From the NCBI RefSeq assembly GCF_018324685.1, contig NZ_AP023354.1, positions 1,984,001 to 2,048,000 of the forward strand: a stretch of 64,000 nt of DNA, written 5' to 3'. Below are positions 16,800-48,385 of this stretch, in pieces. Within the stretch, counting starts at the first letter, position 1; each line of letters begins with the position of its first letter. Source of the DNA: Actinocatenispora sera (GTDB taxonomy: Bacteria; Actinomycetota; Actinomycetes; Mycobacteriales; Micromonosporaceae). A program made the position numbers and the translations under genes. The notes beneath the pieces were generated by a model. That model ran no database searches. It was given only the letters and a program-made list of their open reading frames with translations, and had not been told where the DNA came from.

Positions 16800-17814
16800 C
16801 GACGGCCTCCACAGTGGACATTCCGGGATGGAAGCAGGCGGCGAGATGAGCGTCCGCCCCACCCTGGCGATCGAGCGTCGGGCGGGCGGCGGTGCAGTCG
16901 TCGACGGCGATCGGGCAGCGCGGCGCGAACGGGCACTCGTCCGGATCGGCGTACGGGGCGGGCACCATGCCGGGGATCTCCCGCAGCCGGCGCCGGTCCG
17001 TACCGTCCAGGCGGGCGGCGCTGGGCAGCGCGCCGAGCAGGCCGCGGGTGTAGGGGTGCAGCGGCCGGGCGAACAGCTCGGTCACGTTGGCCTGCTCGAC
17101 GATGCGGCCCGCGTACATCACGGCGACCCGGTCGGCGATGTCCGCCACCACCCCGAGATCGTGCGTGATCAGTACGATCGCGGTACCGAGGCGGTCCCGC
17201 AGCGAGCGGAACACGTCGAGCACGCCGGCCTGGATCGTCACGTCCAGCGCGGTGGTCGGCTCGTCCGCGATCAGGATCCGCGGCTCGCAGGCGACCGCGA
17301 TCGCGATCATCACCCGCTGCCGCATCCCGCCGGACAGCTGGTGCGGGTACTCCCGGAGCCGGCCGGCCGGGTCCGGGATGCCGACCAGTTCCAGCAGCTC
17401 GACGGCGCGGGCGCGGGCGGCGCGGCGGGACAGCTTCTCGTGCCGGTGCAGCACCTCGGTGATCTGGAAGCCGACCGTGAAGGACGGGTTGAGCGAGGTC
17501 ATCGGCTCCTGGAACACCACCGAGACGTCCGAGCCGCGCAGCGCGCGCAGCTCCGATCCGCTCAGCCGCACCAGATCCCGGCCGTCCAGCCGTACCGAGC
17601 CGGTCACCTGCGCGGTGGGCGGCAGCAGCCGCGGTACCGACATCGCGGTCACCGACTTGCCCGAGCCCGACTCGCCGCACAGCGCCAGGATCTCGCCCGG
17701 CGCCAGGGTCAGCGAGACCCCCTTGACCGCCTGGACCAGCCCGTCCTCGGTGCCGAACGAGACGTGCAGGTCCTCCACCGCGAGCAGCGGTGCGGCACGT
17801 TCCTCATCAGTCAT
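16792..17814 (-). CDS. Peptide ABC transporter ATP-binding protein (OppD/DppD type)
   Basis: 340 residues, ATG at 17814 overlapping the permease stop by 4 nt (ATGA). Walker [10 protein letters not shown], signature [12 protein letters not shown], Walker [14 protein letters not shown]-loop THDLG, and the C-terminal [14 protein letters not shown] iron-sulfur-like cysteine cluster common in this subfamily. The last codons carry one copy of the palindrome described in the findings (TCCACAGTGGA at 16808), encoding Ser-Thr-Val-Glu. Confidence 0.94.
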
Positions 17815-18701
17815 CGGGCGCTCCTGGGGTCGATCACGTCGCGAAGGCCGTCGCCGAGCAGGTTGAACCCGAGCGTGGTGACCGCGATCATCACGCCCGG
17901 CCACACCGCGAGCCACGGTGCCTGGGACAGGAACTGCTGTGCGGTGGTCAGCATGACGCCCCAGGACGGGGTCGGCGGCTGCACACCGAGGCCGAGGAAC
18001 GACAGCGTCGCCTCGCCGATGATCGCGGCCGGAATCGCCACCGTCGCCTGCACGATCAGCGCGTTGGCGGCGTTCGGCAGCACGTACCGGAACAGGATCG
18101 TGGCGTCGTTCGCGCCGTCGGCGATCGCGCCGGCGACGAAGTCCTGCTCGCGTACCGACAGCACCTCGCCGCGGGTGATCCGGACGATCGCCGGGATCTG
18201 CGAGATGCCGAGCGCGAACACCACGTTGCGCAGCGACGGTCCGAGGATCGCCGCCAGGCCGACCGCGAACACCAGGAACGGGAAGGACAGCACGACGTCG
18301 ACGGCGCGCATCACCACCGAGTCGAGGTAGCGCCGGTAGAACCCGGCGACCAGCCCGATCGGGATGCCGATCACCATCGCCAGCGCCGTGGACAGCACCC
18401 CGGCCTCGAGCGAAACCCTTGCGCCGGACGCGATCCGGGCCAGCTGGTCGCGGCCGAGATCGTCGGTACCGAGCAGGTGTGCGCCGGACGGCGCGCCGAG
18501 CACGTCGTCGAAGTGCACCGCGGTCGGGTCGCCGAACAGCGCCGGACCGAGCAGCGCCAGCAACACGAACAGTACGACGAGGATCAGCCCGGCCAGCGAC
18601 ATCGGCTTGCGGTAGAACCGGCGCCACATCCGCCGCCAGCGGTCCGACCGGCCGGCCACGGCGACCGCCGCGGGTGCCGGGGTGGTGAGCACGTCAGCCA
18701 T
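17811..18701 (-). CDS. Peptide ABC transporter permease (DppC type)
   Basis: 296 residues, ATG at 18701. A basic cytoplasmic start (WRRMWRRFYRKP) precedes six predicted membrane helices; the EAA loop region reads GEATLSFLGLGVQPPTPSWG, diagnostic of DppC/OppC. It overlaps both neighbours (8 nt with the other permease, 4 nt with the ATPase), so the subunits are made in fixed ratio. Confidence 0.93.
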   Translation of the reverse strand: MADVLTTPAPAAVAVAGRSDRWRRMWRRFYRKPMSLAGLILVVLFVLLALLGPALFGDPTAVHFDDVLGAPSGAHLLGTDDLGRDQLARIASGARVSLEAGVLSTALAMVIGIPIGLVAGFYRRYLDSVVMRAVDVVLSFPFLVFAVGLAAILGPSLRNVVFALGISQIPAIVRITRGEVLSVREQDFVAGAIADGANDATILFRYVLPNAANALIVQATVAIPAAIIGEATLSFLGLGVQPPTPSWGVMLTTAQQFLSQAPWLAVWPGVMIAVTTLGFNLLGDGLRDVIDPRSAR

Positions 18702-19653
18702 TGGTCGCTCCCGCCAGCCGGATCCGCGGATTCAGCGCCGCATAGGCGACGTCGACGAGCAGGTTGACCACGATGTACCCGACGACGGTCACCAGCACGA
18801 CCGCCTCGATCACCGGATAGTTACGGGTCAGCACCGCGTCGACGGTCAGCTTGCCGAAGCCGGGGATGACGAAGATCTGTTCGGTCACCACCGCGCCGGA
18901 GATCAGGCCGCCCAGTTGCAGGCCCAGTACGGTGACGACGGTGGTGAGGCTGTTGCGCAGCGCGTGCACGCCCACGACCCGCGGCCCGGACAGCCCCTTG
19001 GACCGCGCGGTACGCACGTAGTCGGCGGACAGCGCGCCGAGCATCGCCGACCGGGTCTGGCGCATCAACACCGCGGCGAAGCCGGTACCGAGCACCAGCG
19101 CCGGCAGGATCATCCGTTCCAGGTTCTGCGCCGGGTTCTCGGTGAACGGCACGTAGCCGGAGGCCGGCAGCCAGCGCAGCTTCACCGCGAACAGCAGGAT
19201 CGCGAGCAGCCCCAGCCAGAAGTGCGGTACCGACAGCCCGAGCAGGCCGAAGCCGGTCGCGGTGTAGTCGGAGAACTTCCCCCGCCGGGCCGCCGCGATC
19301 GTGCCGAACAGCACGCCGACGACGATGGCCACGAGCATCGCGAGGATCGCAAGCTCCAGCGTCACCGGGATCCGGTTCGCCAGGATCTGGCTGACCGGCA
19401 GTTTGTCCTGTGTGGACGTACCGAGGTTGCCGGTGACCAGGTGCTTGAGATAGTCGAGGTACTGCACCGGCAACGACTTGTCCAGCCCGTACTCCGCCCG
19501 GATCGACTTGATCACCTGCGGTGTCGGGTTCTCGCCGGCCAGCACCACGGCCGGGTCACCGGGCAGCGCGCGGACGCCGAGGAACACCACGACGCTCGCG
19601 ATCAGCACCACGATCACGGCCGCGCCGAGGCGGCGCAGCAGATACCAACCCAT
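18694..19653 (-). CDS. Peptide ABC transporter permease (DppB type)
   Basis: 319 residues, ATG at 19653. Begins MGWYLLRRLGAAVIVVL and contains DYLKHLVTGNLGTS and ARSKGLSGPRVVGVHALRN, the EAA-type loop of DppB/OppB permeases, with six membrane helices. It starts 11 nt after the solute-binding gene. Confidence 0.93.
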   Translation of the reverse strand: MGWYLLRRLGAAVIVVLIASVVVFLGVRALPGDPAVVLAGENPTPQVIKSIRAEYGLDKSLPVQYLDYLKHLVTGNLGTSTQDKLPVSQILANRIPVTLELAILAMLVAIVVGVLFGTIAAARRGKFSDYTATGFGLLGLSVPHFWLGLLAILLFAVKLRWLPASGYVPFTENPAQNLERMILPALVLGTGFAAVLMRQTRSAMLGALSADYVRTARSKGLSGPRVVGVHALRNSLTTVVTVLGLQLGGLISGAVVTEQIFVIPGFGKLTVDAVLTRNYPVIEAVVLVTVVGYIVVNLLVDVAYAALNPRIRLAGATNG

Positions 19654-19664
19654 TGTCCTGCCAC

Positions 19665-21275
19665 CTACTTCGCATAGCCCGCGGTCTCGAACCGCGGAAT
19701 GCCGTCGGAGTAGTACCGGATGCCCGCCACGTTCGCCGAGGTGCCGAGGAAGTAGCGCTCGTGGTACAGGTAGATGATTCCGTTGAGCTCGTGCTGGCGC
19801 GCGATCACCGTGCTGTACAAGGCGCGTCGCTTCGCGGTGTCGGTGGTCGCGGCCGCGGCGTGCACGCCGTTGTCGATGACCGGATCGTGCAGCCCGCTGT
19901 AGTTGTTCGAGCCGCCGGAGGTGATCAGGTCGTTGATGTCACCGTCCGGGTCGACCCGGCCGGACCAGCCGACCTGGATGGTGTCGAACTTGCCCTCCCG
20001 GGCCTGGTTGAGCGTGGTGACGAACTCGCCCGGTACCACCTTGACGGCGAAGCCGGCCTCCTTGGCCATCGCCTGGATGACCTGTCCGAGCCGCTCGGAG
20101 ACCGGATCGGCGGTCAGCGACAGCGTCACCGGAACCGGAGTCTTGACCCCCGACTGCTTGACCAGCCGGCGCGCCTTGGCCAGGTCACGCTTCGGGCAGG
20201 TCGCCTTCGGGTCGCGGTACGGGGAGTTCTTCGGCAGCGGTGAGCAGTCCGGGTCGTACAGGCCGTTGAAGACCACCCGGTTGATCACGTCCCGGTCCAG
20301 TGACAGGCCGAACGCCTGGCGCAGCTCGGGATGCTGGGCGAGCGGCGTGTCGACCTTGCCGGGTTTCTTGTCGGTGCCGTGCACGTTCGACGTGTTGATC
20401 GTGATGCCCTGGTAGCTGATGCCGCCGCCGGGCAGGATCTTCAGGCTCTTGTCCGCCGACAGGGTGCCGACGTCCGAGGTCGCCAGCCGCTCCGCGACCT
20501 GGATGTCACCGGACTGCAGGTTCGCCGACCGGACGTTCGCGTCGGTGACGATCTTGTAGATCAGCTTGTCCAGCTTCACCTTGGCCTTGCCGTAGTAGTA
20601 CGGCGACTTCTTCAGCACGATCTGGCTGCCGGAGGTGCGGCTGACGAACGAGAACGGGCCGACGCACTGCGGGTGCGCGCCGAAGTTCTTGCCGTACTTG
20701 CGCAGCGCCGCCGGCGACATGATCATCCCGGCCCGGTCCGCCAGTTGCGCGGCGAGCGGGGCGAACGGGCGGCTCAGGTGCAGCCGTACCGTGTGGTCGT
20801 CGACCACGTCGACCGACTTGACGGCGCCGAGCTCGCTCTTGCGCGACGAGGTCGGCAGCGTCAGGTCACGCACCAGGGTGGTGCGCACCGCCTGCGCGTC
20901 CATGGTGGTGCCGTCGTTGAACTTCAGCCCTTGCCGCAGCGCGATCGTGGCGGTGCGGTCGTGGTCGGAGAGCTTGGGCAGTGCCGCGGCGAGCTGCGGG
21001 ACGATCTTCAGGTTCTCGTCCACGTCGTAGAGCTTCTGGCACATGCTGGCGAACACCTCGCGGGCGACGAAGGTGTTCGCGGTGGTCGGGTCGAGCGCGT
21101 CGGGATCCTGGGACAGTGCGACGGTGAGCGTGCCGCCGTCGCGCACCGGTCGGGCGTCGAACGGCGCCGATCCGGTGAGTTGCCTGCCGACGCTGGTCTC
21201 GGTGCCCGAGCAGGCCGCCGCCGTCAACAGCAGCGGGACGACCGCCAGCGCGGCCATCAGCCGACGGGTACGCAT
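19665..21275 (-). CDS. Peptide-binding lipoprotein (SBP family 5)
   Basis: 536 residues, ATG at 21275 behind GAGGAG. A lipoprotein signal ends in LTAAACSG with the acylated cysteine. The family-5 pattern is clear: GTLTVALSQDPDALDPTTA, REVFASMCQKLYDVDENLKIVPQLA and the LRQGLKFNDG block. Captures peptides or related amides for the downstream permeases. Upstream 172 nt separate it from the GntR gene and contain the perfect palindrome CTGTATACAG, so this is the probable regulated start of the operon. Confidence 0.93.
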   Translation of the reverse strand: MRTRRLMAALAVVPLLLTAAACSGTETSVGRQLTGSAPFDARPVRDGGTLTVALSQDPDALDPTTANTFVAREVFASMCQKLYDVDENLKIVPQLAAALPKLSDHDRTATIALRQGLKFNDGTTMDAQAVRTTLVRDLTLPTSSRKSELGAVKSVDVVDDHTVRLHLSRPFAPLAAQLADRAGMIMSPAALRKYGKNFGAHPQCVGPFSFVSRTSGSQIVLKKSPYYYGKAKVKLDKLIYKIVTDANVRSANLQSGDIQVAERLATSDVGTLSADKSLKILPGGGISYQGITINTSNVHGTDKKPGKVDTPLAQHPELRQAFGLSLDRDVINRVVFNGLYDPDCSPLPKNSPYRDPKATCPKRDLAKARRLVKQSGVKTPVPVTLSLTADPVSERLGQVIQAMAKEAGFAVKVVPGEFVTTLNQAREGKFDTIQVGWSGRVDPDGDINDLITSGGSNNYSGLHDPVIDNGVHAAAATTDTAKRRALYSTVIARQHELNGIIYLYHERYFLGTSANVAGIRYYSDGIPRFETAGYAK

Positions 21276-21333
21276 GGGGGACTCCTCGAACCTCGGGGGT
21301 GTGCCGCGCCACTCAGTCGCCGCGCAACGGCTT

Positions 21334-21343
21334 CTGTATACAG
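21334..21343. promoter_or_regulatory. Candidate GntR operator upstream of the peptide importer
   Basis: CTGTATACAG is a perfect 10-bp palindrome 58 nt before the binding-protein start. It shares the TG(T/C)ATAC core with the longer palindrome next to the adjacent GntR gene, consistent with one regulator acting at both sites. Confidence 0.5.
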
Positions 21344-21447
21344 GATCCAAGCGGAGCCACCAGGATCTTCCTACTATGTGAACCCTGTGGAAGCGCTTGG
21401 TGAGCGCGACGACACCCAGCGTTGAGCGAACGAGGGGTGTGGCGGGA

Positions 21448-22158
21448 TCAGCTGGCCGGCTCGGACCGGGCGGCCACGGGCCGGGCGGCCACGGGATGGA
21501 CGACCCCGGACTGCGCCGCCACGTGCGCCAGGTAGGAGTGGCGCGCCGCGGCCACGTGTGCGACCGAGAGCGACTGCGCGGACTCCTCGTCACCGGCCGC
21601 GATCGCCGCGTAGATCCGCTCGTGCTCGGTCAGCGACTCACCGGCCCGGGTGTACGCGGTCTGCAGGAACACCCACTGAGCGCGGCGCAGCAGCGGCCCC
21701 ACCAGCTGGTGCAGGTGCTCGTTGCCGGAGGCGGCGGCCACCTCGGTGTGGAACCGGGTGTTCAGATCGGCGACCGCGCCGACCTGGTCGGCGTCGCGCT
21801 GATCGTCCAGCACGCTGCGCAGCCGGGCCAGCGCAGCCCCGTCCCGCCGCCGGGCCGCGAGCCGCGCGGCCAGCCCCTCCAGCGCCATCCGGATGTCGAA
21901 CAGCTCCTCGGCGTGCGCCGGCCGCGGCCGGGCGACCGCAGCGCCGCGCCGCGGCGCCACCTCGACCAGCCCCTCGGTGGCGAGCACCCGGATCGCCTCG
22001 CGGACCGGGTTGCGGGACACGCCGAGGTCCTCCGCCAGCCGGTCCTCGACCAGCCGTTCCCCCGGGGGCAGCAACCCGGTCAGGATCCGCTGCCGGATCT
22101 CGTCGGTGACCAGATCGCGCAGCGGGAGGTGGGACGAACCCAGCGTGTGCTCGGACAT
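21448..22158 (-). CDS. GntR/FadR-type (FCD) transcriptional regulator
   Basis: 236 residues from the ATG at 22158; an ATG at 22167 is possible. Winged HTH residues 10-75 (DEIRQRILTGLLPPGERL, LAEDLGVSRNPVREAIRVLATEGLV) followed by an all-helical FCD domain with the metal-ligand pattern (FDIRMALEG, DLNTRFHTEVAAASGN, EHERIYAAIAAGD, HVAAARH). FCD regulators sense small acids. It is read in the same direction as, and immediately before, the peptide importer-ggt operon, so local control is likely. Confidence 0.92.
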   Translation of the reverse strand: MSEHTLGSSHLPLRDLVTDEIRQRILTGLLPPGERLVEDRLAEDLGVSRNPVREAIRVLATEGLVEVAPRRGAAVARPRPAHAEELFDIRMALEGLAARLAARRRDGAALARLRSVLDDQRDADQVGAVADLNTRFHTEVAAASGNEHLHQLVGPLLRRAQWVFLQTAYTRAGESLTEHERIYAAIAAGDEESAQSLSVAHVAAARHSYLAHVAAQSGVVHPVAARPVAARSEPAS

Positions 22159-22162
22159 GATC

Positions 22163-22177
22163 TGCATACGGTATGCA
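22163..22177. promoter_or_regulatory. 15-bp perfect palindrome at the GntR start
   Basis: TGCATACGGTATGCA, two 7-bp arms around one base, ends 4 nt upstream of the preferred start codon. Probable autoregulatory operator; binding would block transcription or initiation of its own gene. Confidence 0.6.
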
Positions 22178-22257
22178 ATCCGCGCCACGATTGCTCGCGC
22201 GGCCCGCTATCTGGACACCCGCAGCCGTCGCCCGTCACCAGGGCGCCATGGCGGGGA

Positions 22258-22396
22258 GCACGGTTTCAGGAGTGCGCTACCGTCTTGGCGGACCGTGTCG
22301 CAGCGAAGCCGGTGGGAACCCGGCGCTGTCCCGCAACTGTGATGACCGGCCCCGATCCCGGGGGCGGTACGAGCCAGGTCGCCTGCCGCACGGATC
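22258..22396 (+). promoter_or_regulatory. Cobalamin riboswitch
   Basis: The conserved core is readable: GCCGGTGGGAACCCGG (22308-22323), GCTGTCCCGCAACTGTGA (22325-22342) and the B12 box GAGCCAGGTCGCCTGCC (22371-22387). CCGTG (22293-22297) can pair with CACGG (22389-22393) to close the aptamer. Small hairpins around 22430-22453 precede the AGGAGG ribosome site, giving a plausible expression platform that hides it when cobalamin binds. It leads into btuFCD. Confidence 0.9.
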
Positions 22397-27016: not shown

Positions 27017-29125
27017 TCAGCCGACGAGCTCGGCGGGCAGGTCGGCGGAGTGCAGCACCACCAGCCGGGACACCGCTCGGGTGAGCACCACGTACAGCCG
27101 GTGCAGTCCGCGCGGTTCGGCGGCCACGATGTCGGCCGGCTCCAGCACGATGACGTGGTCGTACTCCAGGCCCTTCGCCAGTGTCGCGGGCACCAGCACC
27201 ACCCGCTCCGCCGCCGCCAGATCGTCCACTGTGGAGTGTGGAATCCCGGCGGCGGCGAGCGCGAGGCCGCATGCCTCGATCGCCGCATCGGGCGCGATCA
27301 CGCCGATCGAGCCCTCCTCGGCGAGCGCGTCGCGCACCGCGCCGGGCAGCTCTTCATCCACTGTGGACATTCGGCGCAGCCGCAGCGAGCCGTCGGCGCG
27401 CAGCGAGGTCGCCGCCGGTACCGCCACGTCCAGCGCCGGCACCAACCGGTTCGCGAGGTCGAGCACCGCGCCCGGCACCCGGAAGCCGGTGGTCAGCGCG
27501 GTCACCTCGGCGTCCGGCTTGCCCAGGTGGGCAAGGGAATCCGGCCAGCGGCGGGCCGCCCACGGGGTGGTGCCCTGGGCCAGGTCGCCGAGCACCGTGA
27601 TCGAGCCGTGCTCGCTGCGTCGCGCCACCGCCCGGCACTGCATCGGCGACAGGTCCTGCGCCTCGTCCACCACCACGTGCCCGTAGCTGCCGACCCGGTC
27701 GATCAGCCCGGCCGCCTCGTCGATCAGCACGTTGTCCGCGGCGGTCAGCTTCGCCGCCTTCGGCGCCCGGTCCAGCCGGGCCGTGCGCAGCGGTCGCGGC
27801 CAGGCGATCGCGTCCTGCTCGGCGTCGGTGAGGATGCCGTCCGCCGCGGCCGCGAGCAGCGCCCGGTCGCCGAGCAGCGCCACCACCAGTCCGATCGGGT
27901 CGACCGCCGGCCAGCAGGTGTCCAGGAACTCGCGAACCGGGGCCGACCTGCCGACCCGGCGCAGCCAGGTGTCGCCGGGCGACTCGCCGCGCGCCTCGGC
28001 CTGCCGGCGCAGCCCGCTCGCCACCCGGGCCCGCACCCGCTCCCGGCCCGTCGCGTACGGCAGGCCCTCCCGCCGGGCGTCGTCCACGATGCGGCGCAGC
28101 GCCTCCGCGGACAGCCGCCACCGGGCCGACCCGTCCGACACCGCCAGCGACTCGGTCGGCTTGACCAGCTGCCCGTACAGCGCGCGGCGCACCACCCGCG
28201 CCATCCGCACGTCGTGCTTGACCGCGGCCGCCGCCGGCGCATCGACGGCCCGGACCGGCGCGTGCGCCACCAGCGCATCCACCGCGTACTGGTCGACGCC
28301 GACCTCGCCGAGCGCCGGCAGCACCGCGGCGATGTAGCCGAGGAACGCCGCGTTCGGCCCGACCACCAGCACGCCGGAGCGGCGCAGCTGCTCGCGGTGG
28401 TGGTACAGCAGGAACGCGGCACGGTGCAGCCCGACCGCGGTCTTCCCGGTACCGGGTGCGCCCTGCACGCACAGCGAGGTGGCCAGCTCGGCCCGGACCA
28501 GATCGTCCTGCTCGGGTTGGATGGTGGAGACGATGTCGCGCATCGGGCCCACGCGCGGACGCTCGATCTCGCTGGTCAGGATGCGGCTCGCGGTGCCGAG
28601 TTCCTCACCTTCGGTCAGGTGCTCGTCCTCGAACCCGGTCAGCGCGCCGGCCGCGAACCCGTACCGCCGGCGGCGCGCCACGCCCATCGGCTGCCGCGCG
28701 CTGGCCTGGTAGTACGCCCGGGAGACCGGGGCGCGCCAGTCGATCACCAGCGGCTCGCCCGAGTCGTCCACCACGTGCCGGCGGCCGATGTGGAAGCTCG
28801 CCCCGGCGTTGTCGGCGTGCTCGGTGTCGACCACGTCGAGGTCCGGGTACCCGGCCGCGGCGGCTTCGGCGGCATGGTCGGCGTGGTCGAGCCGGCCGAA
28901 GAACAGCGGGGTGTCCGGATCGTCGGCCAGCTCGGCGATGCGCTGGGCCAGCGCCCGGCCGAGCGACTCGGCGGCGAACGGGTCGCCGCCGACCCCGTCG
29001 CCGGTGCGGTACAGCCCCTCGGCGCGCTCGCGCATCCGGCGCAGCGCGGCCCGGGAGGAGGTCAGGTGGTGCCGCTCGGCGGCAAGCTCCGCGTCGAGGG
29101 CAGGGTCGGTCTTCTGCACGGTCAT
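27017..29125 (-). CDS. HelD-type superfamily-1 helicase acting on RNA polymerase
   Basis: 702 residues, ATG at 29125. N-terminal coiled region (about 1-70), then an interrupted SF1 core: Walker A GAPGTGKTAVG (222-232), Walker B VVVDEAQDLSPMQ, motif VLGDLAQGT and C-terminal LAKGLEYDHVIVLEP and YVVLTRA. These are hallmarks of actinobacterial HelD, which pulls stalled RNA polymerase off DNA; some relatives (HelR) also protect against rifamycins. A candidate promoter GTGACG-17-TAGGCT (29395 down to 29367) would give a leader of about 235 nt. Two copies of the TCCAC(A/T)GTGGA palindrome lie inside the gene. Confidence 0.9.
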   Translation of the reverse strand: MTVQKTDPALDAELAAERHHLTSSRAALRRMRERAEGLYRTGDGVGGDPFAAESLGRALAQRIAELADDPDTPLFFGRLDHADHAAEAAAAGYPDLDVVDTEHADNAGASFHIGRRHVVDDSGEPLVIDWRAPVSRAYYQASARQPMGVARRRRYGFAAGALTGFEDEHLTEGEELGTASRILTSEIERPRVGPMRDIVSTIQPEQDDLVRAELATSLCVQGAPGTGKTAVGLHRAAFLLYHHREQLRRSGVLVVGPNAAFLGYIAAVLPALGEVGVDQYAVDALVAHAPVRAVDAPAAAAVKHDVRMARVVRRALYGQLVKPTESLAVSDGSARWRLSAEALRRIVDDARREGLPYATGRERVRARVASGLRRQAEARGESPGDTWLRRVGRSAPVREFLDTCWPAVDPIGLVVALLGDRALLAAAADGILTDAEQDAIAWPRPLRTARLDRAPKAAKLTAADNVLIDEAAGLIDRVGSYGHVVVDEAQDLSPMQCRAVARRSEHGSITVLGDLAQGTTPWAARRWPDSLAHLGKPDAEVTALTTGFRVPGAVLDLANRLVPALDVAVPAATSLRADGSLRLRRMSTVDEELPGAVRDALAEEGSIGVIAPDAAIEACGLALAAAGIPHSTVDDLAAAERVVLVPATLAKGLEYDHVIVLEPADIVAAEPRGLHRLYVVLTRAVSRLVVLHSADLPAELVG

Positions 29126-37916: not shown

Positions 37917-38960
37917 ATGGAGCGGCAGGAGGTGCCCGGTGCGTCCGGGCTGTTGTCCGAGGTGGCGGCGGCCGAAGCGGAGCTGCGCGCGACCGCCGAG
38001 CGAGACCACGGCGCGGCCGCGGCCGGCGACGAGCTGGCGGCGTACTTCGACGCGGTCGTCGGGGCGGAGGCGAAGATCGAGCCGCGCGACTGGATGCCCG
38101 AGGCGTACCGGAAGGGGCTGGTGCGGCAGATCGCCCAGCACGCGCACTCGGAGATCATCGGGATGCAGCCGGAGGGCAACTGGCTGACCCGGGCGCCGTC
38201 GCTGGCGCGCAAGGCGATCCTGCTGGCCAAGGTGCAGGACGAGGCGGGTCACGGCCTCTACCTCTACGCGGCGGCCGAGACGCTCGGGGTGTCTCGCGTG
38301 CAGCTGTTCGACAAGCTGCTGTCCGGGCGGCAGAAGTACAGCTCGATCTTCAACTACCCGACGCTGAGCTGGGCGGACGTGGGCGCGATCGGCTGGCTGG
38401 TGGACGGTGCGGCGATCGTCAACCAGGTGCCGCTGTGCCGCTGCTCGTACGGGCCGTACGCGCGGGCGATGATCCGGATCTGCAAGGAGGAGTCGTTCCA
38501 CCAGCGGCAGGGGTTCGACCTGCTGTACACGCTGGCCCGCGGCACCGACGAGCAGCGCGCCATGGCGCAGGACGCGGTCGACCGCTGGTGGTACCCGTCG
38601 CTCGCGATGTTCGGGCCACCGGACGCCGACTCGACCCACTCGGCGCAGTCGATGGCCTGGAGGATCAAGCGGTTCAGCAACGACGAGCTACGGCAGAAGT
38701 TCGTCGACATGACCGCGCAGCAGGCCGGGGTCCTCGGGCTGAGCCTGCCGGACGAGGCGCTCGCGTACGACCAGGAGTCCGGGCACTGGCGGTACACCCA
38801 GCCCGACTTCGCCGAGCTGATGCGGGTCATCTCGGGCGACGGGCCGTGCAACCGGCAGCGGATCGAGCACCGCCGGCGGGCGCATGACGACGGCGCCTGG
38901 GTACGGGACTCGGCCGCGGCGTACGCGGCGAAGCAGCGCACGAGGAAGGCCGCGGCATGA
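37917..38960 (+). CDS. paaA: Phenylacetyl-CoA epoxidase catalytic subunit
   Basis: 347 residues, ATG at 37917. Diiron carboxylate ligands lie in [36 protein letters not shown] and [15 protein letters not shown]. PaaA forms the core of the multicomponent oxygenase that epoxidises the ring of phenylacetyl-CoA in the cytoplasm. First gene of a tight five-gene operon with start/stop overlaps throughout. A second, orphan PaaA lies at 51951-52964. Confidence 0.95.
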
Positions 38961-39271
38961 CCGTCGAGAACGGACAGTCCACAGTGGATAGTCAGGACTG
39001 GCCGCTGTGGGAGGTGTTCGTCCGCCCCCGGCGCGGGCTGGCCCACTCGCACGTGGGCAGCCTGCACGCCTCCGACGCGGAGCTCGCGGTGCGCAACGCG
39101 CGCGACCTGTACACCAGGCGGCAGGAGGGCGTGTCGATCTGGGTGGTGCCGGCGGCGGCGATCACCGCGTCCAGCCCGGACGAGAAGGACGCGTTCTTCG
39201 CCCCGGCCGGCGACAAGGTCTACCGGCACCCGACGTTCTATCCGGTACCGGAGGGGGTCGAGCACCTGTGA
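38957..39271 (+). CDS. paaB: Phenylacetyl-CoA epoxidase subunit PaaB
   Basis: 104 residues, ATG overlapping the paaA stop (ATGA). Core [22 protein letters not shown] and the [18 protein letters not shown] block are typical. PaaB bridges the PaaAC complex. Its N-terminus has an unusual Ser-Thr-Val-Asp insert encoded by a copy of the TCCACAGTGGA palindrome (38978-38988). Confidence 0.95.
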
Positions 39272-40011
39272 GATCCGACTACGTGCTGGCGCTGGCCGAC
39301 GACGGCCTGATCGCCGCGCAGCGGCTCGCCGAGTGGACGTCCCGCGCACCGGAGCTGGAGGAGGACGTCGCGCTGGCGAACATCGCCCTGGACACCCTGG
39401 GCCAGGCGCGGCTGCTGTTGAGCCATGCCGGAGAGCTGGAGGGTGCCGGCCGGGACGAGGACGATCTCGCCTACCTCCGCGACGAGCAGGACTTCCGCAA
39501 CTGCCAGCTGGTCGAGCTGGACAACGGTGACTTCGCGGTGACGATCGTGAAGTTGCTGTGCTTCGCGACCTACCAGCACGAGCTGTACGCGGCGCTGCGG
39601 CGCAGCACCGACGAGCGGCTCGCCGCGATCGCGGCGAAGGCGGTCACCGAGACCGAGTACCACGTCGACCACGCCCGGCTGTGGACGCTGCGGCTCGGCG
39701 ACGGTACCCCCGAGGCGCACCGGCGGATGACTGACGCGCTCGCCCGGATCTGGCCCTACACGCACGAGCTGTTCGAGGCCGGCTGGATCGATCCGGAGCT
39801 GCTGGCCGAAGGGGTCGCGGTCGATCCGGCCACCCTGCGCGAGCCCTGGCTGTCCACAGTGGACAAAACCCTGGTCGAGGCGACGCTGGCGGTACCGGAC
39901 GACGACTGGGCACCGAGCGGCGGCCGGCACGGGGTGCACACCGAGGTGATGGGCTACCTGCTCGCGGAGATGCAGTACCTGCACCGGGCGCACCCGGGTG
40001 CGACATGGTGA
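39268..40011 (+). CDS. paaC: Phenylacetyl-CoA epoxidase structural subunit PaaC
   Basis: 247 residues from a GTG at 39268 overlapping the paaB stop (GTGA). Ferritin-like fold without a full diiron site: LADDGLIAAQRLAEW, EEDVALANIALDTLGQAR and HVDHARLW. Pairs with PaaA. Carries another in-frame palindrome copy (39853-39863). Confidence 0.94.
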   Translation: MRSDYVLALADDGLIAAQRLAEWTSRAPELEEDVALANIALDTLGQARLLLSHAGELEGAGRDEDDLAYLRDEQDFRNCQLVELDNGDFAVTIVKLLCFATYQHELYAALRRSTDERLAAIAAKAVTETEYHVDHARLWTLRLGDGTPEAHRRMTDALARIWPYTHELFEAGWIDPELLAEGVAVDPATLREPWLSTVDKTLVEATLAVPDDDWAPSGGRHGVHTEVMGYLLAEMQYLHRAHPGATW

Positions 40012-40481: not shown

Positions 40482-41587
40482 TGGCGGTCACGCTGCGGCG
40501 GCCGACGCGCCGTCGCCCGGAGTTCCACAAGCTGGCCGTGGCCCGGCTCGAGCGGCTGACCGAGGACGCCTACCTGCTCGGGTTCACGGTACCGGCGGAA
40601 CTTCGCGACACGTTCGCGTTCCGGCCCGGCCAGCACCTGACCGTGCGCCACCTGGTGGACGGCGACGACGCACGCCGGTCGTACTCGATCTGCTCCACGC
40701 CCGAGCGGCTCGCCACCGACGGCGAGCTGCAGGTGGGGGTGAAGCTGATCGCGGACGGGGTCTTCTCCCGGTACGTGTCCGAGGAACTCGCCGTCGGCGA
40801 CCGGCTCGAGGTGCTCCCGCCGCTGGGCCACTTCACCACCGACCTCGCTCCGGAGCGGTCCCGGCACTACGCGGCGATCGTCGCCGGCAGCGGCGTGACA
40901 CCCGTGCTGTCGCTGGTGTCGACGGCGCTGTCGGTGGAGCCGGAGAGCCGGTTCACCGTGCTGTACGGCAACCGGTTCGTGCGCTCGGTGATGTTCGTCG
41001 ACGAGCTGGCCGACCTCAAGGACCGTTACCCCGACCGGCTGCAGCTGGTACACGTGCTGTCCCAGGAGCCGGGCGGCTCGGAGTTGCTCTCCGGACGGCT
41101 GGACCCGGACCGGATCGGCCGGCTGCTAGCCACGCTGGTCGATCCGTCCACAGTGGACGAGTGGTTCCTGTGCGGCCCCTACGGCATGGTGGTCGGCGCG
41201 CAGCGGGTGCTGGCGGAGGCCGGGGTCGACGAGCGCTCGGTGCACACCGAGCTGTTCCACGTCAGCGCCGAACCGCCCGCCACGCCGTCCGCCGCGCCGG
41301 TACCGGCGGGGGAGGCCCAGGTGACCATCACCCTGGACGGCCGGTCCAGCACGTTCGGGATGGCCTACGACGAGCGGATCCTGGACAAGGCCCTCGAGGT
41401 ACGGGGTGAATTGCCGTACTCGTGTCGCGGTGGGGTCTGCTCCACCTGCCGGGCGAGGGTCACCGGTGGCGAGGTCCGGATGGCCCGCAACTTCGCCCTG
41501 GAACCCGACGAGCTGGCCGCCGGCTACGTGCTGACCTGCCAGTCCAGCCCGGCCACCGAGCACGTCGAGGTCGACTACGACGGTTGA
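40481..41587 (+). CDS. paaE: PaaE, ferredoxin reductase of the epoxidase
   Basis: 368 residues, ATG at 40481 sharing a base with the paaD stop (TGATG). FNR-type FAD domain (RSYSICST), NADP domain (AGSGVTPVLSL, FLCGPYGMV) and a C-terminal plant-type 2Fe-2S ferredoxin with cysteines 315, 320, 323 and 353 (CRGGVCSTCR). Delivers electrons from NADPH to PaaA. Contains the palindrome at 41147-41157. Confidence 0.95.
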   Translation: MAVTLRRPTRRRPEFHKLAVARLERLTEDAYLLGFTVPAELRDTFAFRPGQHLTVRHLVDGDDARRSYSICSTPERLATDGELQVGVKLIADGVFSRYVSEELAVGDRLEVLPPLGHFTTDLAPERSRHYAAIVAGSGVTPVLSLVSTALSVEPESRFTVLYGNRFVRSVMFVDELADLKDRYPDRLQLVHVLSQEPGGSELLSGRLDPDRIGRLLATLVDPSTVDEWFLCGPYGMVVGAQRVLAEAGVDERSVHTELFHVSAEPPATPSAAPVPAGEAQVTITLDGRSSTFGMAYDERILDKALEVRGELPYSCRGGVCSTCRARVTGGEVRMARNFALEPDELAAGYVLTCQSSPATEHVEVDYDG

Positions 41588-41660: not shown

Positions 41661-44234
41661 TCACTCCGGTTCGCCGGGCTGGTAGAGCTCGCCGATCCGC
41701 GCCCGCTGCAGGCCGCGGTGGTAGGACGACAGCGTGCCCCGGACCTCCTCGGCCGACCGTTGCCGCCGCACCGGAGCCGGCGCGCGGGTGACGCTGCCGG
41801 GTACCAGTTGCGCCTGCGGATCCCGCCGGGGCAGACCGCCGGTGGTGCCGTGGCCGGCCAGGCGCGAGGAAGCCGCGGCGAGCCGCCACCCGTCGTCCGC
41901 CGGCGACTCCCAGCGACCGGTCGCCGAGGCGCGCGGCGGCGGTGCCTCGTCGCGGGACCCGTCCGGTACGCCGGACGCCTGCTCGGGCCGGGACGTCGAG
42001 GCGATCTGGAACCAGGCGGACCCGGCCGGACGCGACGGCGGCTCGGCCGCCGCTGCCGTGGCCGGGTGGGGCGGCAGCCCGATGGACGGCCGTGCCGGCG
42101 CCGCGGCCCGTACGGTCTGCGGCGTCTCGACCCGGCGCCGTGCCGACGTCGGGTCGGGCACCGACCGGTACCCGGGCGACTCCAGGATGTCCTGCGGGAT
42201 GACCACCTCGGCCAGGGTGCCGGGCAGCGCCGAGCGCAGCTCGACGGTCGCGCCGATGTGCCTGGCCAACCGGCCCACCACGGCGAGACCCATGTTCCGG
42301 GACAGCGACGCGTCCACCGACGGCGGGTCGGCCAACCGCCGGTTCAGCTCGGTCAGCCGATCGGCGCGGATCCCGGCACCGGCGTCGGTGATCGTGACGT
42401 AGACCCGGTTGCCGATCCAGCACGCCTCGGCCGTGACGATGGTGTCCGGCGGCGAGAACGAGGTCGCGTTGTCCAGCAGCTCGGCGATGAGGTGGACCAG
42501 GTCGTTGACCGCGCGACCGGCGACGTCCACGCCCATGTCGACGACGCCGAGCTCGATCCGCGTGTACTGCTCCACCTGGGACTGCGCGGCGCGCAGCACG
42601 TCGCCCAGCGCCGCCGACTCGCGACGGGCCCGGCTCACGTCGACCCCGACCAGGACCAGCAGGTTCTCGTCGTTGCGCCGCATCTGGGTGGCCAGGTGGT
42701 CGAGGTGGAACAGCTGACCGAGCCGGTCCGGGTTCTGCTCGCCCTGCTCCATCTGGTCGATGCGCCGGATCAGCCGGTCGACCAGCAGCTGCGAACGGCG
42801 GGCGAGGTTGACGAACATCGTCGACACGCTGCTGCGCAGCGTGGCCTGCTCCGCCGCGATCCGGACCGTCTCCCGGTGCACGACGTTGAACGCCTCGGAC
42901 ACCTGGCCGATCTCGTCCTGGCTGGGTCTGGCCACCACGTCCTGGACGCCGGCGGCGAGGTCGTCGGCGGTGAGCGTGCCGAGCGTGCCCGGGTCGCGGA
43001 GCCGGGCCACCGTATCGGGCAGCTCCTGGTACGCCACGGACAGCGCACCGGCCTCCAACCGGTGCAGCGACCTGGCCATGGAACGCGCGGTCAGCAACGC
43101 GATCGCGATCGCCACCAACACCATCAGCGACACCGCCGCCGACTCGGCGACGAGCTGGCGGAGCAGGTCGTTCTCCTGCTGCTGGACGAGGGCGCGGAAC
43201 TCTTCGCGGAGCCGGGTTTCGACCAGGCCGCTGAGCGCCACCCGGGTACCCATCGTCCTGGTCCACTGCGCGGTACCGACGTCGCCGGAGATCGTGCCGG
43301 TGCCGCCGGCGCTCGCCCGGCTCAGGTCACCCTCGTACCGCTGGGCGGCGATGATGTCGTTCTGGGTCTGCGCCGTGGTCAGGGCGTGCCGGTCGCCGGG
43401 CAGGGGCGTGTCGGTGTTCGCCCCGACCCCGCGGCCGGCGATCGTTCGCTCCATCGCGGTGACGTGGTCGCCGTCCACGGCGTCGCGGAACGCGCGCAGC
43501 GCCTCGGCCTGCCCCTCCAGGTTGGCCTGGAACGACTCGTGCTGGGCGGAGGTCACGTCGGAGCCACCGGCCAGCATGACGATCCCGACCTCCTGCTCCT
43601 GCGAGGTCATCTCGGTGTGCGAAGCCATCGCGCTGGCGCCACGGGCCAGGTTGGCCGCCTCGTCCGAACCGGCCACGTTGGCCAGCGTCTGCCGGTACGC
43701 CAGCAGGTCGGCGATCAGGCTGCGGTAGCTGAACACCGCGGTGGACAGCGGGATGATGTCGCGCTTCTCGATCGACCGGCGCAGCGGATCGAGCTCGTCG
43801 AGCTGGGTGTCGATGCGGCCCAGCAGATCGGTGAGGTTGCGCTCCGAGCTGTCCACCCCGGCGCGCGCCGCGCGGTACTCCCGCAGCTGCCTGTCGGCCT
43901 TGGCGATCTGCTCCCGGTACGCGCGAGCGGCGGCGCCCTGCTTCTGCTTCGGCGTGGTGAGCAGGGCCGCGGCCAGCGTCCGTTCGGTCTGCAGCTGGGT
44001 GGTCAACGCGGTGGCGTCGTCGGCGAGCCGGGCTTGCCGGATCGCCTGCCGGGCCTGCAGCACGTCCTGGCCGGTACCGACCAGCTGGACGGCGGCGACC
44101 CCGATCAGCGCGGTGATCGGCACGATCAGGATCAGCCCGAGCTTGGTCCGGATTCGTGCATCACGAAGGCGGGCCACCGGACCACGACGCCGGTCCGTGG
44201 TCGGTCGCTCGCTGGTGCTCTGCCGTTCTGTCAC
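41661..44234 (-). CDS. Large NIT/HAMP sensor histidine kinase, conservon type
   Basis: 857 residues from a GTG at 44234 with GAGGGG. Layout: basic cytoplasmic head, membrane helix about 33-52, a long extracellular helical sensor (NIT-like, about 55-360, with MLAGGSDVTSAQHESF), second helix about 365-385, HAMP (about 386-470), a degenerate dimerisation helix (LARRSQLLVDRLIRRIDQMEQ) without a clear phospho-His box, and a HATPase (LIAELLDNATSFSPPDT, ITDAGAGI, MGLAVVGRLARHIG). A Pro/Ala/Arg-rich tail of about 200 residues follows. Such kinases normally head conservons with roadblock, DUF742 and GTPase genes; none is next to this one. Confidence 0.88.
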   Translation of the reverse strand: MTERQSTSERPTTDRRRGPVARLRDARIRTKLGLILIVPITALIGVAAVQLVGTGQDVLQARQAIRQARLADDATALTTQLQTERTLAAALLTTPKQKQGAAARAYREQIAKADRQLREYRAARAGVDSSERNLTDLLGRIDTQLDELDPLRRSIEKRDIIPLSTAVFSYRSLIADLLAYRQTLANVAGSDEAANLARGASAMASHTEMTSQEQEVGIVMLAGGSDVTSAQHESFQANLEGQAEALRAFRDAVDGDHVTAMERTIAGRGVGANTDTPLPGDRHALTTAQTQNDIIAAQRYEGDLSRASAGGTGTISGDVGTAQWTRTMGTRVALSGLVETRLREEFRALVQQQENDLLRQLVAESAAVSLMVLVAIAIALLTARSMARSLHRLEAGALSVAYQELPDTVARLRDPGTLGTLTADDLAAGVQDVVARPSQDEIGQVSEAFNVVHRETVRIAAEQATLRSSVSTMFVNLARRSQLLVDRLIRRIDQMEQGEQNPDRLGQLFHLDHLATQMRRNDENLLVLVGVDVSRARRESAALGDVLRAAQSQVEQYTRIELGVVDMGVDVAGRAVNDLVHLIAELLDNATSFSPPDTIVTAEACWIGNRVYVTITDAGAGIRADRLTELNRRLADPPSVDASLSRNMGLAVVGRLARHIGATVELRSALPGTLAEVVIPQDILESPGYRSVPDPTSARRRVETPQTVRAAAPARPSIGLPPHPATAAAAEPPSRPAGSAWFQIASTSRPEQASGVPDGSRDEAPPPRASATGRWESPADDGWRLAAASSRLAGHGTTGGLPRRDPQAQLVPGSVTRAPAPVRRQRSAEEVRGTLSSYHRGLQRARIGELYQPGEPE

Positions 44235-44285
44235 CGGCCACCCCTCGAGACGGACATACAACGCAGCCAACGATGAATGCTGTGA

Positions 44286-44302
44286 TGCGGCGTCAACGCC
44301 GC
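44286..44302. terminator. Small hairpin upstream of the kinase gene
   Basis: TGCGGCG / CGCCGCA with TCAA loop in the gap between the acyl-CoA ligase stop and the kinase start; could end the ligase transcript. Confidence 0.3.
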
Positions 44303-44390
44303 AAGAGCGATGAACCGCTGGATTGCATCATGAATGTCTGGGCGAAAAAAGACCGCTGTCGATGTCTTCCGGGCGTTGCCCGCTGTTTCG

Positions 44391-46019
44391 TTACGAATCC
44401 GGTCGGTACATCGCGTCGATCTCCTCCCGGTAGCGGGCGTTCACGGTCTCGCGCCGGATCTTCAACGACGCGGTCAGCTCGCCGCCGGACACGGTCAGCT
44501 CGCCGTCCAGGATGCGGAACGCCCGGATCGACTCCGGCCGCGACACCGCCCGGTTGGCCTCGGTCACGGCCGCCTGGATCTCCGCCCGCAGCACCGGATC
44601 CCGGTCCAGCGGACCGTCGGCGCGGTTGCGCTCGCGCAGTACCGCCGGGTCCAGGGCGACCAGGCAGGACACGAACGGGCGGCGGTCGCCGACCACCACC
44701 GCCTGGCTGATCAGCGGGTGTGCCCGCAGCCGGCTCTCCAGCGTGGTGACGTCGACGTTCTTGCCGCCGGCGGTGATCACCAGATCCTTCTTGCGTCCGG
44801 TGATGGACAGGAACCCGTCGTCGTCCAGGACACCGATGTCGCCGGTGTGCAACCAGCCGTCCACCAGGGCGCCGGCCGTCGCCGCCGGGTTGCGGTGGTA
44901 GCCACCGAACACGCAGTCCCCGCGGACCAGCACCTCGCCGTCGGCGGCGATGCGCACCGAGACTCCGGGCAGCGGCCGGCCCACGGAACCCGGGCGGCTC
45001 GCGTCCGGGCCGTTGATGGTGGCCGGCCCGGCGACCTCGGTCAGCCCGTACCCCTCGTAGACGGCGATCCCGGCGGACCGGTAGAAGTGGCCGAGCTGCT
45101 CGTCGTGCGGGGCGCCGCCAACCACGATCGCGCCGCACCTTCCGCCGAGCGCCGCCACGGCGTCGCCACCCGGCGCCGCGTCCCGCAGCTTCTCCATGTA
45201 CCGGGGGACCAGCGGCAGCACCGTCGGCCGCACCGCGGCGAGGCCGGCCGCGAGCTCGGCGGTACGGGGCAGGTGGGTGACGCGCACCTGGCGCAGCACC
45301 GCCGCGCACTGCATCGTGCGGGTGAAGATGTGGGCGAGCGGCAGGAACAGCACGATCGCACCGCCGGGCGCGAACACCGGGCCGAGCCGGTCCAGGAACC
45401 CGTCCAGGTTCGACAGGAAGTTGTCATGCGTGATCGCCACGCCCTTGGCCGGCCCGGTGGTCCCGCTGGTGTAGATGATCGTCGCGACCGACTCCGGCGG
45501 TACCTTCCGGCGCTGCGCGAACGCCTCGTCGTCGACGTCCGCCGCCCGCTCGGCGAGCCGGTCCAGCGCACCGCCGTCCAGCCGCAGCACGACGGGAGGC
45601 GGGCCGCCGATCGTCCGGGTCGCCGTCTCGACGACGCGGGCCTCGTCCGCGCCGCCGACGAGGCACCAGCCGGCGCCGGAGTCGCGCAGGATCCAGGCCA
45701 CCTGCTCGACGCTCGCGGTGTCGTACACCGGAACGCTGACCGCGCCGATCGACCAGAGCGCGTAGTCGCAGACCGTCCACTCGTACCGGGTCGCGGACAG
45801 CAGGCCGACCCGGTCGCCGGCGCGGATGCCCGCGGCGATCAGGCCCTTGCCGACGGCGGTCACCCGGTCGGCGAACTCGGTCGCGGTCACCCGGCCGGGG
45901 CCGTCGGACGGCGCGAACGCGACCGCGCTCGGATGCTCGATGGCGTTGCGGTACACCGGATCGGCCATGCTGGACAGGCCGCTCGCCGCCGCCACCGCGG
46001 GCGTGTGGTACTCGCGCAT
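44391..46019 (-). CDS. AMP-forming long-chain acyl-CoA ligase
   Basis: 542 residues, ATG at 46019 overlapping the preceding methyltransferase stop by one base. ANL-superfamily motifs: P-loop IIYTSGTTGPAKGV, EGYGLTEVAGP, GWLHTGDIGVLDDDGFLSITGRKKD and the C-terminal lysine region SLKIRR. Activates a fatty or aryl acid to its CoA thioester. Coupled to a methyltransferase, which is an unusual pair. Confidence 0.9.
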   Translation of the reverse strand: MREYHTPAVAAASGLSSMADPVYRNAIEHPSAVAFAPSDGPGRVTATEFADRVTAVGKGLIAAGIRAGDRVGLLSATRYEWTVCDYALWSIGAVSVPVYDTASVEQVAWILRDSGAGWCLVGGADEARVVETATRTIGGPPPVVLRLDGGALDRLAERAADVDDEAFAQRRKVPPESVATIIYTSGTTGPAKGVAITHDNFLSNLDGFLDRLGPVFAPGGAIVLFLPLAHIFTRTMQCAAVLRQVRVTHLPRTAELAAGLAAVRPTVLPLVPRYMEKLRDAAPGGDAVAALGGRCGAIVVGGAPHDEQLGHFYRSAGIAVYEGYGLTEVAGPATINGPDASRPGSVGRPLPGVSVRIAADGEVLVRGDCVFGGYHRNPAATAGALVDGWLHTGDIGVLDDDGFLSITGRKKDLVITAGGKNVDVTTLESRLRAHPLISQAVVVGDRRPFVSCLVALDPAVLRERNRADGPLDRDPVLRAEIQAAVTEANRAVSRPESIRAFRILDGELTVSGGELTASLKIRRETVNARYREEIDAMYRPDS

Positions 46020-46843
46020 CAGCCCGCACCCCGGCCCGGGTCGGTCCCCGCGGCCGCGCCGGGACGCCGCCCCACCGTGGTGTGCATCAGCCAGGCGGAG
46101 AGGACGAAGCCGGGATCGTCGAGCAGCCGGTGCAGCGTGGCCAGCTGCTCGCCGGTCATCCCGTCGGCCCGCAGCGTCGGCTCGATCTGGTACGCCAACG
46201 CCTGGTACAGGCCGCATCCGGCGCTGCCGCCGGGCCACGACCGGCCGAACACGACGGTCCGCTCGGGCGCCAGGCCCGCGGTGCGCATCGCCGCGTAGGC
46301 GTACCTGGTCCAGCCGAGATCCGCGCCGTTGCGCCGGCCGAGGCTCCGGATGATGTCGTTGAACAGCTCGAACGTCTCGGCATCGGCCGGATCCGGCACC
46401 GCGAGGACGGGGTCGCGCTCGCGGCAGTCGCAGTCCGACAGCACGATCAGCCCGCCCGGGCGAAGCGCGGAGACCAGCCGGGCCAGCACCTCGTGCCGGT
46501 TCGGCAGGTGCACGAACACCATCCGGGCGTGGATCAGGTCGTACTCGCCCGCCGGTACCGGGTCGCGGCCGACATCGTGCCGGAGCACCGTCAGGTTGTC
46601 GCGCTCGGTGAGGTACCGCGGATCGACGTCGGTGGCGGTGACGTGCCCCTCCGGGCCGACCCGGTCGGCCAGCCAGCCGGCGATCGAGCCCGCGCCGGCC
46701 CCGATGTCCAGGCACCGCCAGCCGCGGCCCACCCCGTACTCGGTGAGGACGGACGTGGTGTGGCCGTCGAACGCCTCGCTGAGCTGATCGAGCTGTCGTG
46801 CGCCGGCCGCGCCGGCGTTGTCGAAGCTGTATCCGGTAGGCAT
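46019..46843 (-). CDS. SAM-dependent methyltransferase
   Basis: 274 residues, ATG at 46843. Class-I SAM motifs: motif I CLDIGAGAGSIAGWLAD, acidic VTATDVDPR, and the YDLIHARMVFVHLP and LRPGGLIVLSDCD blocks. Resembles UbiE-like and small-molecule methyltransferases. Coupled by overlap to the acyl-CoA ligase; substrate unknown. Confidence 0.88.
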   Translation of the reverse strand: MPTGYSFDNAGAAGARQLDQLSEAFDGHTTSVLTEYGVGRGWRCLDIGAGAGSIAGWLADRVGPEGHVTATDVDPRYLTERDNLTVLRHDVGRDPVPAGEYDLIHARMVFVHLPNRHEVLARLVSALRPGGLIVLSDCDCRERDPVLAVPDPADAETFELFNDIIRSLGRRNGADLGWTRYAYAAMRTAGLAPERTVVFGRSWPGGSAGCGLYQALAYQIEPTLRADGMTGEQLATLHRLLDDPGFVLSAWLMHTTVGRRPGAAAGTDPGRGAG

Positions 46844-46987
46844 CTGGGCGGCTCCAGTCCGAACGTTCCCTTCGGGAAGTGGATACGCGTAGCTGCCGCC
46901 TCGTGCGCTATGCGGTGGATGCGCTCGGAGCCGGGATTTGCAATGTTTGACCAGCGGTACCCCGTCCGCAACCCTCGCCGGCGCCCG

Positions 46988-47440
46988 TTACCGCGCCGAG
47001 ATCTCGTCCTCGCGGGCCGCCGTCGAAGATCTAGGGAGATCTCGGATCAGACAGGTCAGTCGGGCCGTGCAGACCGTCCGGCCGTCGTCGTCGGTGAGCA
47101 CGATCCGGTACGTGGCCAGCGTGTCGCCGCGATGCACCGGGGTCGCCGTCCCGGTGATGGTGCCGCGCAGCGCGGGCCGGTGGTGCGTGGCGTTGATCTC
47201 GACCCCGACCGCGCGCCGCTGCGGGCCTGCATGCAGGGCCGCAGCCATGGTTCCGAGCGTCTCGGCGAGCACGCAGGACACGCCGCCGTGCAGCATCCCG
47301 TACGACTGCGTGTTGCCGGCTACGGGCATGCTGCCGACCACGCGTTCCGGGTCGGCCTGCCGGATCTCGATGCCGGTACGTTCGACGGCCGGGCCGAGCG
47401 GGCCGATGCCGGCGATGGCGTTCGGATCGAACGACTGCAC
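46988..47440 (-). CDS. PaaI-type hotdog thioesterase
   Basis: 150 residues from a GTG at 47440 behind GGAGGA. Hotdog fold with the PaaI signature GMLHGGVSCVLAETLG and the strand GVEINATHHRPA. Hydrolyses acyl- or aryl-CoA thioesters; PaaI relieves dead-end CoA esters in phenylacetate catabolism. Located near an acyl-CoA ligase and between two paaA copies, which fits that role but does not prove it. Confidence 0.87.
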   Translation of the reverse strand: MQSFDPNAIAGIGPLGPAVERTGIEIRQADPERVVGSMPVAGNTQSYGMLHGGVSCVLAETLGTMAAALHAGPQRRAVGVEINATHHRPALRGTITGTATPVHRGDTLATYRIVLTDDDGRTVCTARLTCLIRDLPRSSTAAREDEISAR

Positions 47441-47639
47441 GGGCGGTCCTCCATCGGTGTTTTCCCCTCGTGTTCGCCGCGCCGCGCGACGGAGTTTCGC
47501 CGGGGGTCTTTCGGGGACGACGTGGTGTAGGCAAAATAGGCGCTCGCCAGGAACCGTGCAAAAGCATCGTCTGGGATTCCCGGCGCAACCGCGGTTCGTA
47601 TCTCGCAACCGGCATGAGAACGCACGGAAGGCGAAGAGC

Positions 47640-48367
47640 ATGACAAGCAACGACAACACGACTGTGGTCCTGGTGCACGGCGCCTGGCACAGCCCGTGGT
47701 GCTGGAACCCGGTGGTCGCCGAGCTCGACCAGTACGGCATCCACAGCGTCACCGTCGACCTGCCGAGCTGTCGCACCGTCGACGGCGCGCCGGCGGGTGA
47801 CATGCACGCCGACGCCGCCGAGATCCGCAACACCCTGGACCGGTACGAGGACGTGGTGCTGGTGGCGCACTCGTACGGGGGATTCCGGCGACCGAGGGCG
47901 CGGCCGGCCATCCGGCGGTGCGGCACCTGGTCTACGTCGCCGCCTACAACGCCGACGAGGGCGAGTCGCTCGGCGGCTACGCGGTACCGAACCCGGGGCC
48001 GGACGTGCTCAACCCGCCGGCGGACCTGACGATGGGCGAGAACGGCATGATGGGCGTGCGGACGGATCGCGCCGCGACGTTGTTCTACAACGGGATGCCG
48101 GCGGACGCGGCCGAGGCGGCGGTGGCGCAGCTGCGGCCGATGTCCGCCGCCGTGCTGTCCCAGACCCCGACCGCGGTCGCCTGGCGCGACATCCCGTCGA
48201 CCTACGTGCTGACCGGCCAGGACAACGCGACGCCGACCGTGGTGCAGCGCGAGCTGTGCAAGCGGGCGGGTGCGGTGATCGAGCTCGGCGACTCCTGCCA
48301 CTCGCCGATGCTGGCCGCGCCGAAGCGGGTCGCCGACATCATCGGCTCGGTGGTCGCCGCGCGGTAA
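47640..48367 (+). pseudogene. Alpha/beta hydrolase with a one-base frameshift
   Basis: ATG at 47640 with GGAAGG. Frame one reads VVLVHGAWHSPWCWNPVVAEL to the nucleophile motif LVAHSYGG; then at the G5 run 47877-47881 the homologous sequence continues in another frame (IPATEGAAGHPAVRHLVYVAAYNADEGESL) to a stop at 48365-48367 and ends with the catalytic-His block GDSCHSPMLAAP. Adding one base at the G run restores a 243-codon gene. This is either a real recent mutation, phase variation, or a sequencing error in a homopolymer. Confidence 0.85.
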
Positions 48368-48385
48368 CTGTCCACAGTGGATCGA

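Follow-up and report, generated by a model that had tools for sequence, protein, structure and literature searches.

A dispersed palindrome of Actinocatenispora sera and its relatives is probably a PadR operator multiplied across the chromosome

The 64-kb stretch of the Actinocatenispora sera chromosome analyzed here (NZ_AP023354.1, positions 1,984,001 to 2,048,000; hereafter, the window) contains seven exact copies of the palindrome TCCACWGTGGA (W, A or T), compared to 0.03 expected from dinucleotide shuffles. This palindrome is probably an operator of one subgroup of PadR-family proteins that has been expanded into a genome-wide binding landscape. Based on the position of the motif in padR promoters and on the co-occurrence of the gene and the motif, this PadR subgroup is quite likely to recognize it. 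The extended form (T)GTCCACWGTGGAC(A) would then be the binding site of a winged-helix repressor. As PadR-family repressors are dimeric, this one would, by analogy, also be a dimer.

The chromosome of A. sera (7,044,238 bases, one contig) contains 206 copies of TCCACWGTGGA and no copies of the reversed control, and the initial annotation, which had predicted a palindrome iterated throughout the genome from the window, is thus borne out. Of these copies, 104 have the form GTCCACWGTGGAC. The window is locally rich, with seven copies compared to the genome mean of 1.9 per 64 kb. In 1.18 Mb, the scope of the counts below unless another one is given, we found 65 copies with 0.1 expected. The consensus of 37 sites is (T)GTCCACWGTGGAC(A), with flanks leaning to A/T up to about nine bases from the center. 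The boundary of the motif is sharp, as 65 of the 69 copies of the inner 9-mer CCACWGTGG sit in the full 11-mer, flanked by its outer T and A. Copies with one mismatch, the center excepted, are also in excess (26 vs. 3.1 expected), and there are five copies with C or G (S) at the center (1.2 expected). Outside the motif, the inner words show little: CCACWGTGG was seen 4 times with 2.7 expected, ACWGT 406 times with 500 expected, and CACWGTG was in mild excess (38 vs. 24.8). When half-sites were considered at different spacers in 464 kb (positions 1–400000 of the chromosome plus the window), only spacer 1 stood out, with 21 cases compared to 0–2 for spacers 0 and 2–29. The overlap with the DnaA box TTGTCCACA, also noted in the initial annotation, holds insofar as GTCCACA is shared. 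However, the motif is a symmetric dyad with a fixed 1-bp center, T at position −8 is found in only 3 of the 37 sites, and the exact TTGTCCACA occurs twice in the 464 kb; hence, the sites are not DnaA boxes.

Genomes differ strongly in the number of copies. Among A. sera and 60 relatives (61 genomes in total), 23 genomes have at least 20 copies (dense genomes) and 38 have fewer, down to zero (sparse genomes). In a sample of 393 genomes of the class, no genome outside the order had more than 8 copies, while 56 of the 298 genomes sampled from the order were dense, with the maximum of 717. The densest genome seen, G636, has 717 copies in 6.6 Mb, and G026 has 773 copies in 10.3 Mb. In family f15, 51 of 64 genomes are dense.

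The distribution of the PadR subgroup follows this pattern in part. We searched the 298 genomes sampled from the order using a profile built from 23 of these proteins and, applying a threshold of 1e-45 that was chosen after seeing the table, found matches in 154 genomes. All 56 dense genomes have a match (E-value 2.7e-52 or better), and the 144 genomes without a match carry at most four copies of the motif each. The sole genome of family f15 without a PadR ortholog, G609, has no copies of the motif. In the 61-genome set, 22 of the 23 dense genomes and 25 of the 38 sparse ones had matches at 1e-25 or better.

PadR genes are also found next to the motif. Close motif pairs in named genomes come, among the at least 80 loci listed, mostly from Mycobacteriales in the wide sense; the genera include Amycolatopsis, Prauserella, Virgisporangium, Streptoalloteichus, Nocardia, and others, as well as a few unrelated bacteria. 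At four of these loci (L105, L141, L162, and L171), PadR-family genes forming one blastp cluster lie beside the pair, three of them (L105, L141, and L171) being confirmed by Pfam. The best relative of the pair-locus PadR is itself a PadR gene in the majority of genomes from the family of A. sera. All five PadR proteins scanned had PF03551 and PF10400 above the cut-off, and the nearest solved chains are 5x11 and 1yg2 (AphA). In most fetched loci, padR adjoins a release-factor gene (PCRF and RF-1 domains on examples), presumably prfB. In all 13 loci of family f15 (L288–L300), padR, the release-factor gene, and the start of an ABC-ATPase gene, which we take to be ftsE, follow in the same order (RF-1/PCRF and ABC_tran on examples).

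Within 160 bp upstream of padR, the best motif-like box has 0, 1, 2, and 3 mismatches in 6, 24, 21, and 26 of 77 distinct loci, respectively. The box is thus within two mismatches in 51 of 77 loci, although these loci are related to each other and hence not independent. Mononucleotide shuffles of 80 loci (the same 77 and three duplicates) yielded 0.12 boxes with at most one mismatch and 2.28 with at most two. Boxes within two mismatches were found in 27 of 30 loci from the 61-genome set, 19 of 20 hand-picked loci, and 5 of 27 loci from the survey of the order, the latter mostly from the sparse genus g4. As one or two related boxes are present in the padR promoter in many genomes, padR may be autoregulated.

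Several observations weigh against the interpretation of the motif as a PadR operator. At the promoter, the best box has three mismatches in 22 of the 27 survey loci, mostly those of g4, and a box of this quality arises in about a quarter of shuffled sequences; even in the own genus of A. sera, which is dense, the box (TACACAATGGA) has two mismatches. The neighboring release-factor gene was not seen in the fetched stretches of the dense genomes G019 and G021. Among the 45 genic sites in the 1.18 Mb, there was no excess near gene starts. The genome G008 has 404 copies and no PadR ortholog was found in it, the assembly being 69% complete. Finally, 98 of the 154 genomes with PadR are sparse, including genus g4 (0–15 copies) and f13 (0–3 copies), and a single family supplies 51 of the order's 56 dense genomes, so that the co-occurrence of PadR and the motif is confounded by phylogeny. 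Since, on the other hand, all 56 dense genomes are carriers, PadR looks necessary but not sufficient for a high density of sites.

The same observations could be explained if another DNA-binding protein read the motif and also regulated padR: the presence of PadR does not predict the density, the padR box is poor in g4, and no PadR was detected in the dense G008. However, genes of a second PadR subgroup neighbor the motif at other loci, and we regard such a reader as unlikely. As for the quality of the padR box, it is poor in the sparse g4, good in many dense genomes, and intermediate in the dense own genus; the quality of the box and the number of sites may co-evolve.

In the 1.18 Mb, 45 sites fall within called genes and 20 outside them, while the share of DNA outside called genes is 15%. 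The genic sites are scattered along the gene length, the last fifth holding 15 of the 45. Of the three frames, 33 sites are read as STV[DE], and nine and three sites are in the other two. The frame lock described in the initial annotation is therefore strong, but not absolute, given the 12 genic sites in other frames and the 20 sites outside genes. At 15 loci of G581, a genome from another family, seven sites were in the TCC-ACW-GTG-GAN frame, two in another one, and six outside called genes. The lock could be due to the sites arising from TCC-ACC/ACG-GTG-GAC, the codon-preferred neighbor of the motif.

This neighbor raises the question of whether the motif could be a by-product of common peptides or of the conversion of C/G to A/T at the center; the sister genome G003 has an S center at 4 of the 34 A. 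sera sites. Codon usage, however, predicts 0.16 STV[DE] peptides with the codons of the motif, whereas 33 of 45 were seen, ruling out a peptide-driven origin. Similarly, S-centered copies are not depleted in dense genomes (4–121 in the 23 dense and 1–50 in the 38 sparse genomes), which rules out conversion at the center; moreover, A. sera has 206 W-centered copies, and sparse genomes have at most 63 W- and S-centered copies together. We give this explanation next to no credence. The genome-wide excess and the codon-usage test both agree with the earlier suggestion that the motif acts at the DNA level and dictates the peptide.

To follow the turnover of sites, we compared A. sera with its congener G003 (approximately 89% identity, 411,623 alignment columns), counting A and T at the center as equivalent. 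Of 34 A. sera sites, 21 are identical in G003 and two more have A and T swapped at the center; hence, 23 are kept, with 14.2 expected from same-phase neighbors (z 3.1). In the opposite direction, 23 of 29 sites are kept with 12.0 expected (z 4.2). An earlier and smaller test on orthologs was weaker, giving 10 of 14 with 6.5 expected (z 1.9) and 6 of 7 with 4.1 expected (z 1.5). The center is the commonest place of point change: of the 11 A. sera sites lost in G003, four have C or G at the center, one has another single change, one has two changes, and five have at least three changes or gaps. These data fit sites that outlast their surroundings, are probably born and lost largely by point mutations, and are under selection for the dyad, with the five larger replacements falling outside this scheme.

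The initial annotation had compared the motif with HIP1 of cyanobacteria and suggested a mismatch-repair or methylation origin. The likeness is evident, as both are exact palindromes in great excess, mostly genic, and patchy among relatives, and HIP sequences track methyltransferases in cyanobacteria (PMC4390886). HIP1 is shorter (8 bp, compared to 11–13 bp here) and far denser, at about one copy per kb, as opposed to one per 34 kb. The motif also differs in the little enriched inner words, CACWGTG being in mild excess, and in the link to a repressor gene. Given that the inner 9-mer rarely occurs alone, that the turnover proceeds largely by point changes, and that dense genomes share padR, with a related promoter box in many of them, we do not retain this origin; it is highly improbable that methylation-directed mismatch repair generated the palindrome where a solitary DNA methyltransferase acts.

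SlmA and Noc provide another parallel. SlmA, a TetR-family protein, and Noc bind dispersed sites, and the motif resembles these in being a scattered palindrome that is presumably recognized by a member of a regulator family. If the motif had a similar role in nucleoid occlusion, its sites would crowd the origin and avoid the terminus. In A. sera, with dnaA at 1,239,396, the first 2.35 Mb, roughly centered on dnaA, contain 100 of 206 sites with 68.7 expected (p 8e-6, a rough value, as the edge was set by the 100th site listed and clustering was ignored), and the 400 kb opposite dnaA contain six sites, so the terminus is thinner, but not empty. In the same 2.35 Mb, 12 of 99 gaps between sites are shorter than 1 kb compared to 4.1 expected (p 0.0006). 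In G581, with dnaA at 751, there is no origin trend among the sites listed, 50 of 92 being in the first 4.56 of 8.21 Mb. Avoidance of the terminus is thus not upheld as a general rule, and the origin bias of A. sera may be lineage-specific or reflect core genes located near the origin. Unlike SlmA and Noc sites, the motif does not avoid the terminus in the listed part of G581; we consider nucleoid occlusion very unlikely.

Returning to PadR, the motif may be likened to operators of this family (PF03551), a dyad box, often with mismatches, lying upstream of padR in many genomes. PadR proteins are known as local regulators with few sites, whereas the motif has hundreds of mostly intragenic copies. 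We propose the following scheme. The repressor gene, usually positioned just upstream of the release-factor gene and, in f15, also of the ABC-ATPase gene, would be autoregulated through one or two boxes in its own promoter. Across many of the order's lineages, point mutation would have been the main route by which sites spread, and tens to hundreds of them would be retained along the chromosome, mostly within genes. PadR could then coat the chromosome sparsely, acting as a nucleoid-associated protein or being titrated by the sites. That the genomic sites serve organization or titration, rather than reflect a weakly selected spread, is a tentative suggestion that we hold at somewhat less than even chance; chromosome organization, also listed in the initial annotation, is a possible role. 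More speculatively, and improbably on present evidence, the PadR encoded before the release-factor gene and ftsE could have turned into a sequence-specific nucleoid protein, with the intragenic sites forming a sink that ties the free repressor, and hence the output of the release factor and FtsEX, to the amount of DNA or, in some lineages, to the origin dose. Literature searches for the motif string, PadR beside prfB and ftsE, nucleoid-associated PadR, ChIP-seq of PadR in Streptomyces, palindromes of Actinobacteria and Pseudonocardiaceae, and actinobacterial SlmA returned nothing on this motif in titles and the beginnings of abstracts, most subscription papers being outside their scope.

In the window, all seven exact copies are at the coordinates listed initially, and six of them are in called genes, on both strands, in the TCC-ACW-GTG-GAN frame. 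On the minus strand, TCCACAGTGGA at 16808..16818 encodes STVE at the very 3′ end of its open reading frame (ORF), where the local coding score is weak (7.8 vs. 5.5 for the next frame), and is intact in both G001 and G003. Two copies of TCCACTGTGGA, also on the minus strand, encode STVD in one ORF: the copy at 27225..27235 has C at the center in both G001 and G003, and the copy at 27357..27367 is intact in both. Three copies of TCCACAGTGGA are on the plus strand. The one at 38978..38988, close to the N-terminus of the ORF read from the ATG at 38958, is intact in G001 and replaced in G003; the STVD site at 39853..39863 is intact in G001 and has G at the center in G003; and the STVD site at 41147..41157 is intact in both. 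The seventh copy, TCCACAGTGGA at 48371..48381, is outside called genes and is kept in G001 and G003 despite differing flanks. Of the two partial copies reported earlier, the one near 54374 is a one-mismatch copy, TTCACTGTGGA, at 54372..54382, but near 10474 there is nothing within two mismatches.

Motif pairs also occur in other contexts. At seven loci, they lie upstream of small DUF1707-type genes that fall into a single blastp cluster, with Pfam confirmation for L118 and L128. At L118, L127, L128, and L174, an smc-like gene (SMC_N and SMC_hinge in L118) is located no farther than about 2 kb from such a gene with its upstream pair. In A. sera, two copies 19 bp apart, at 1396629 and 1396648, are located about 9 bp past the stop codon of an ORF of 66–67 amino acids; the same pair is present in A. 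comari (L112, 2388 and 2407), at a locus with 83–95% identity. Outside Actinomycetota, three Rhodobacteraceae (Roseovarius) loci (L119, L142, and L165) have clusters of the motif with repeated spacings of 23 and 39 bp and GGGGTCCACWGTGGACCCC-like surroundings. A second, unrelated repeat of A. sera, GTTGATCAAGGGA(T), has 16 copies of the 13-mer in the 464 kb, with approximately zero expected.

It is unusual for a genome to contain a large set of dispersed, near-perfect palindromes, and for HIP1, the best-known case, the explanations are still models only. The present system offers a candidate reader, a genome lacking both the protein and the motif (G609), relatives that are dense or sparse, and sister genomes between which sites turn over, and hence the cause of the accumulation of sites becomes testable.

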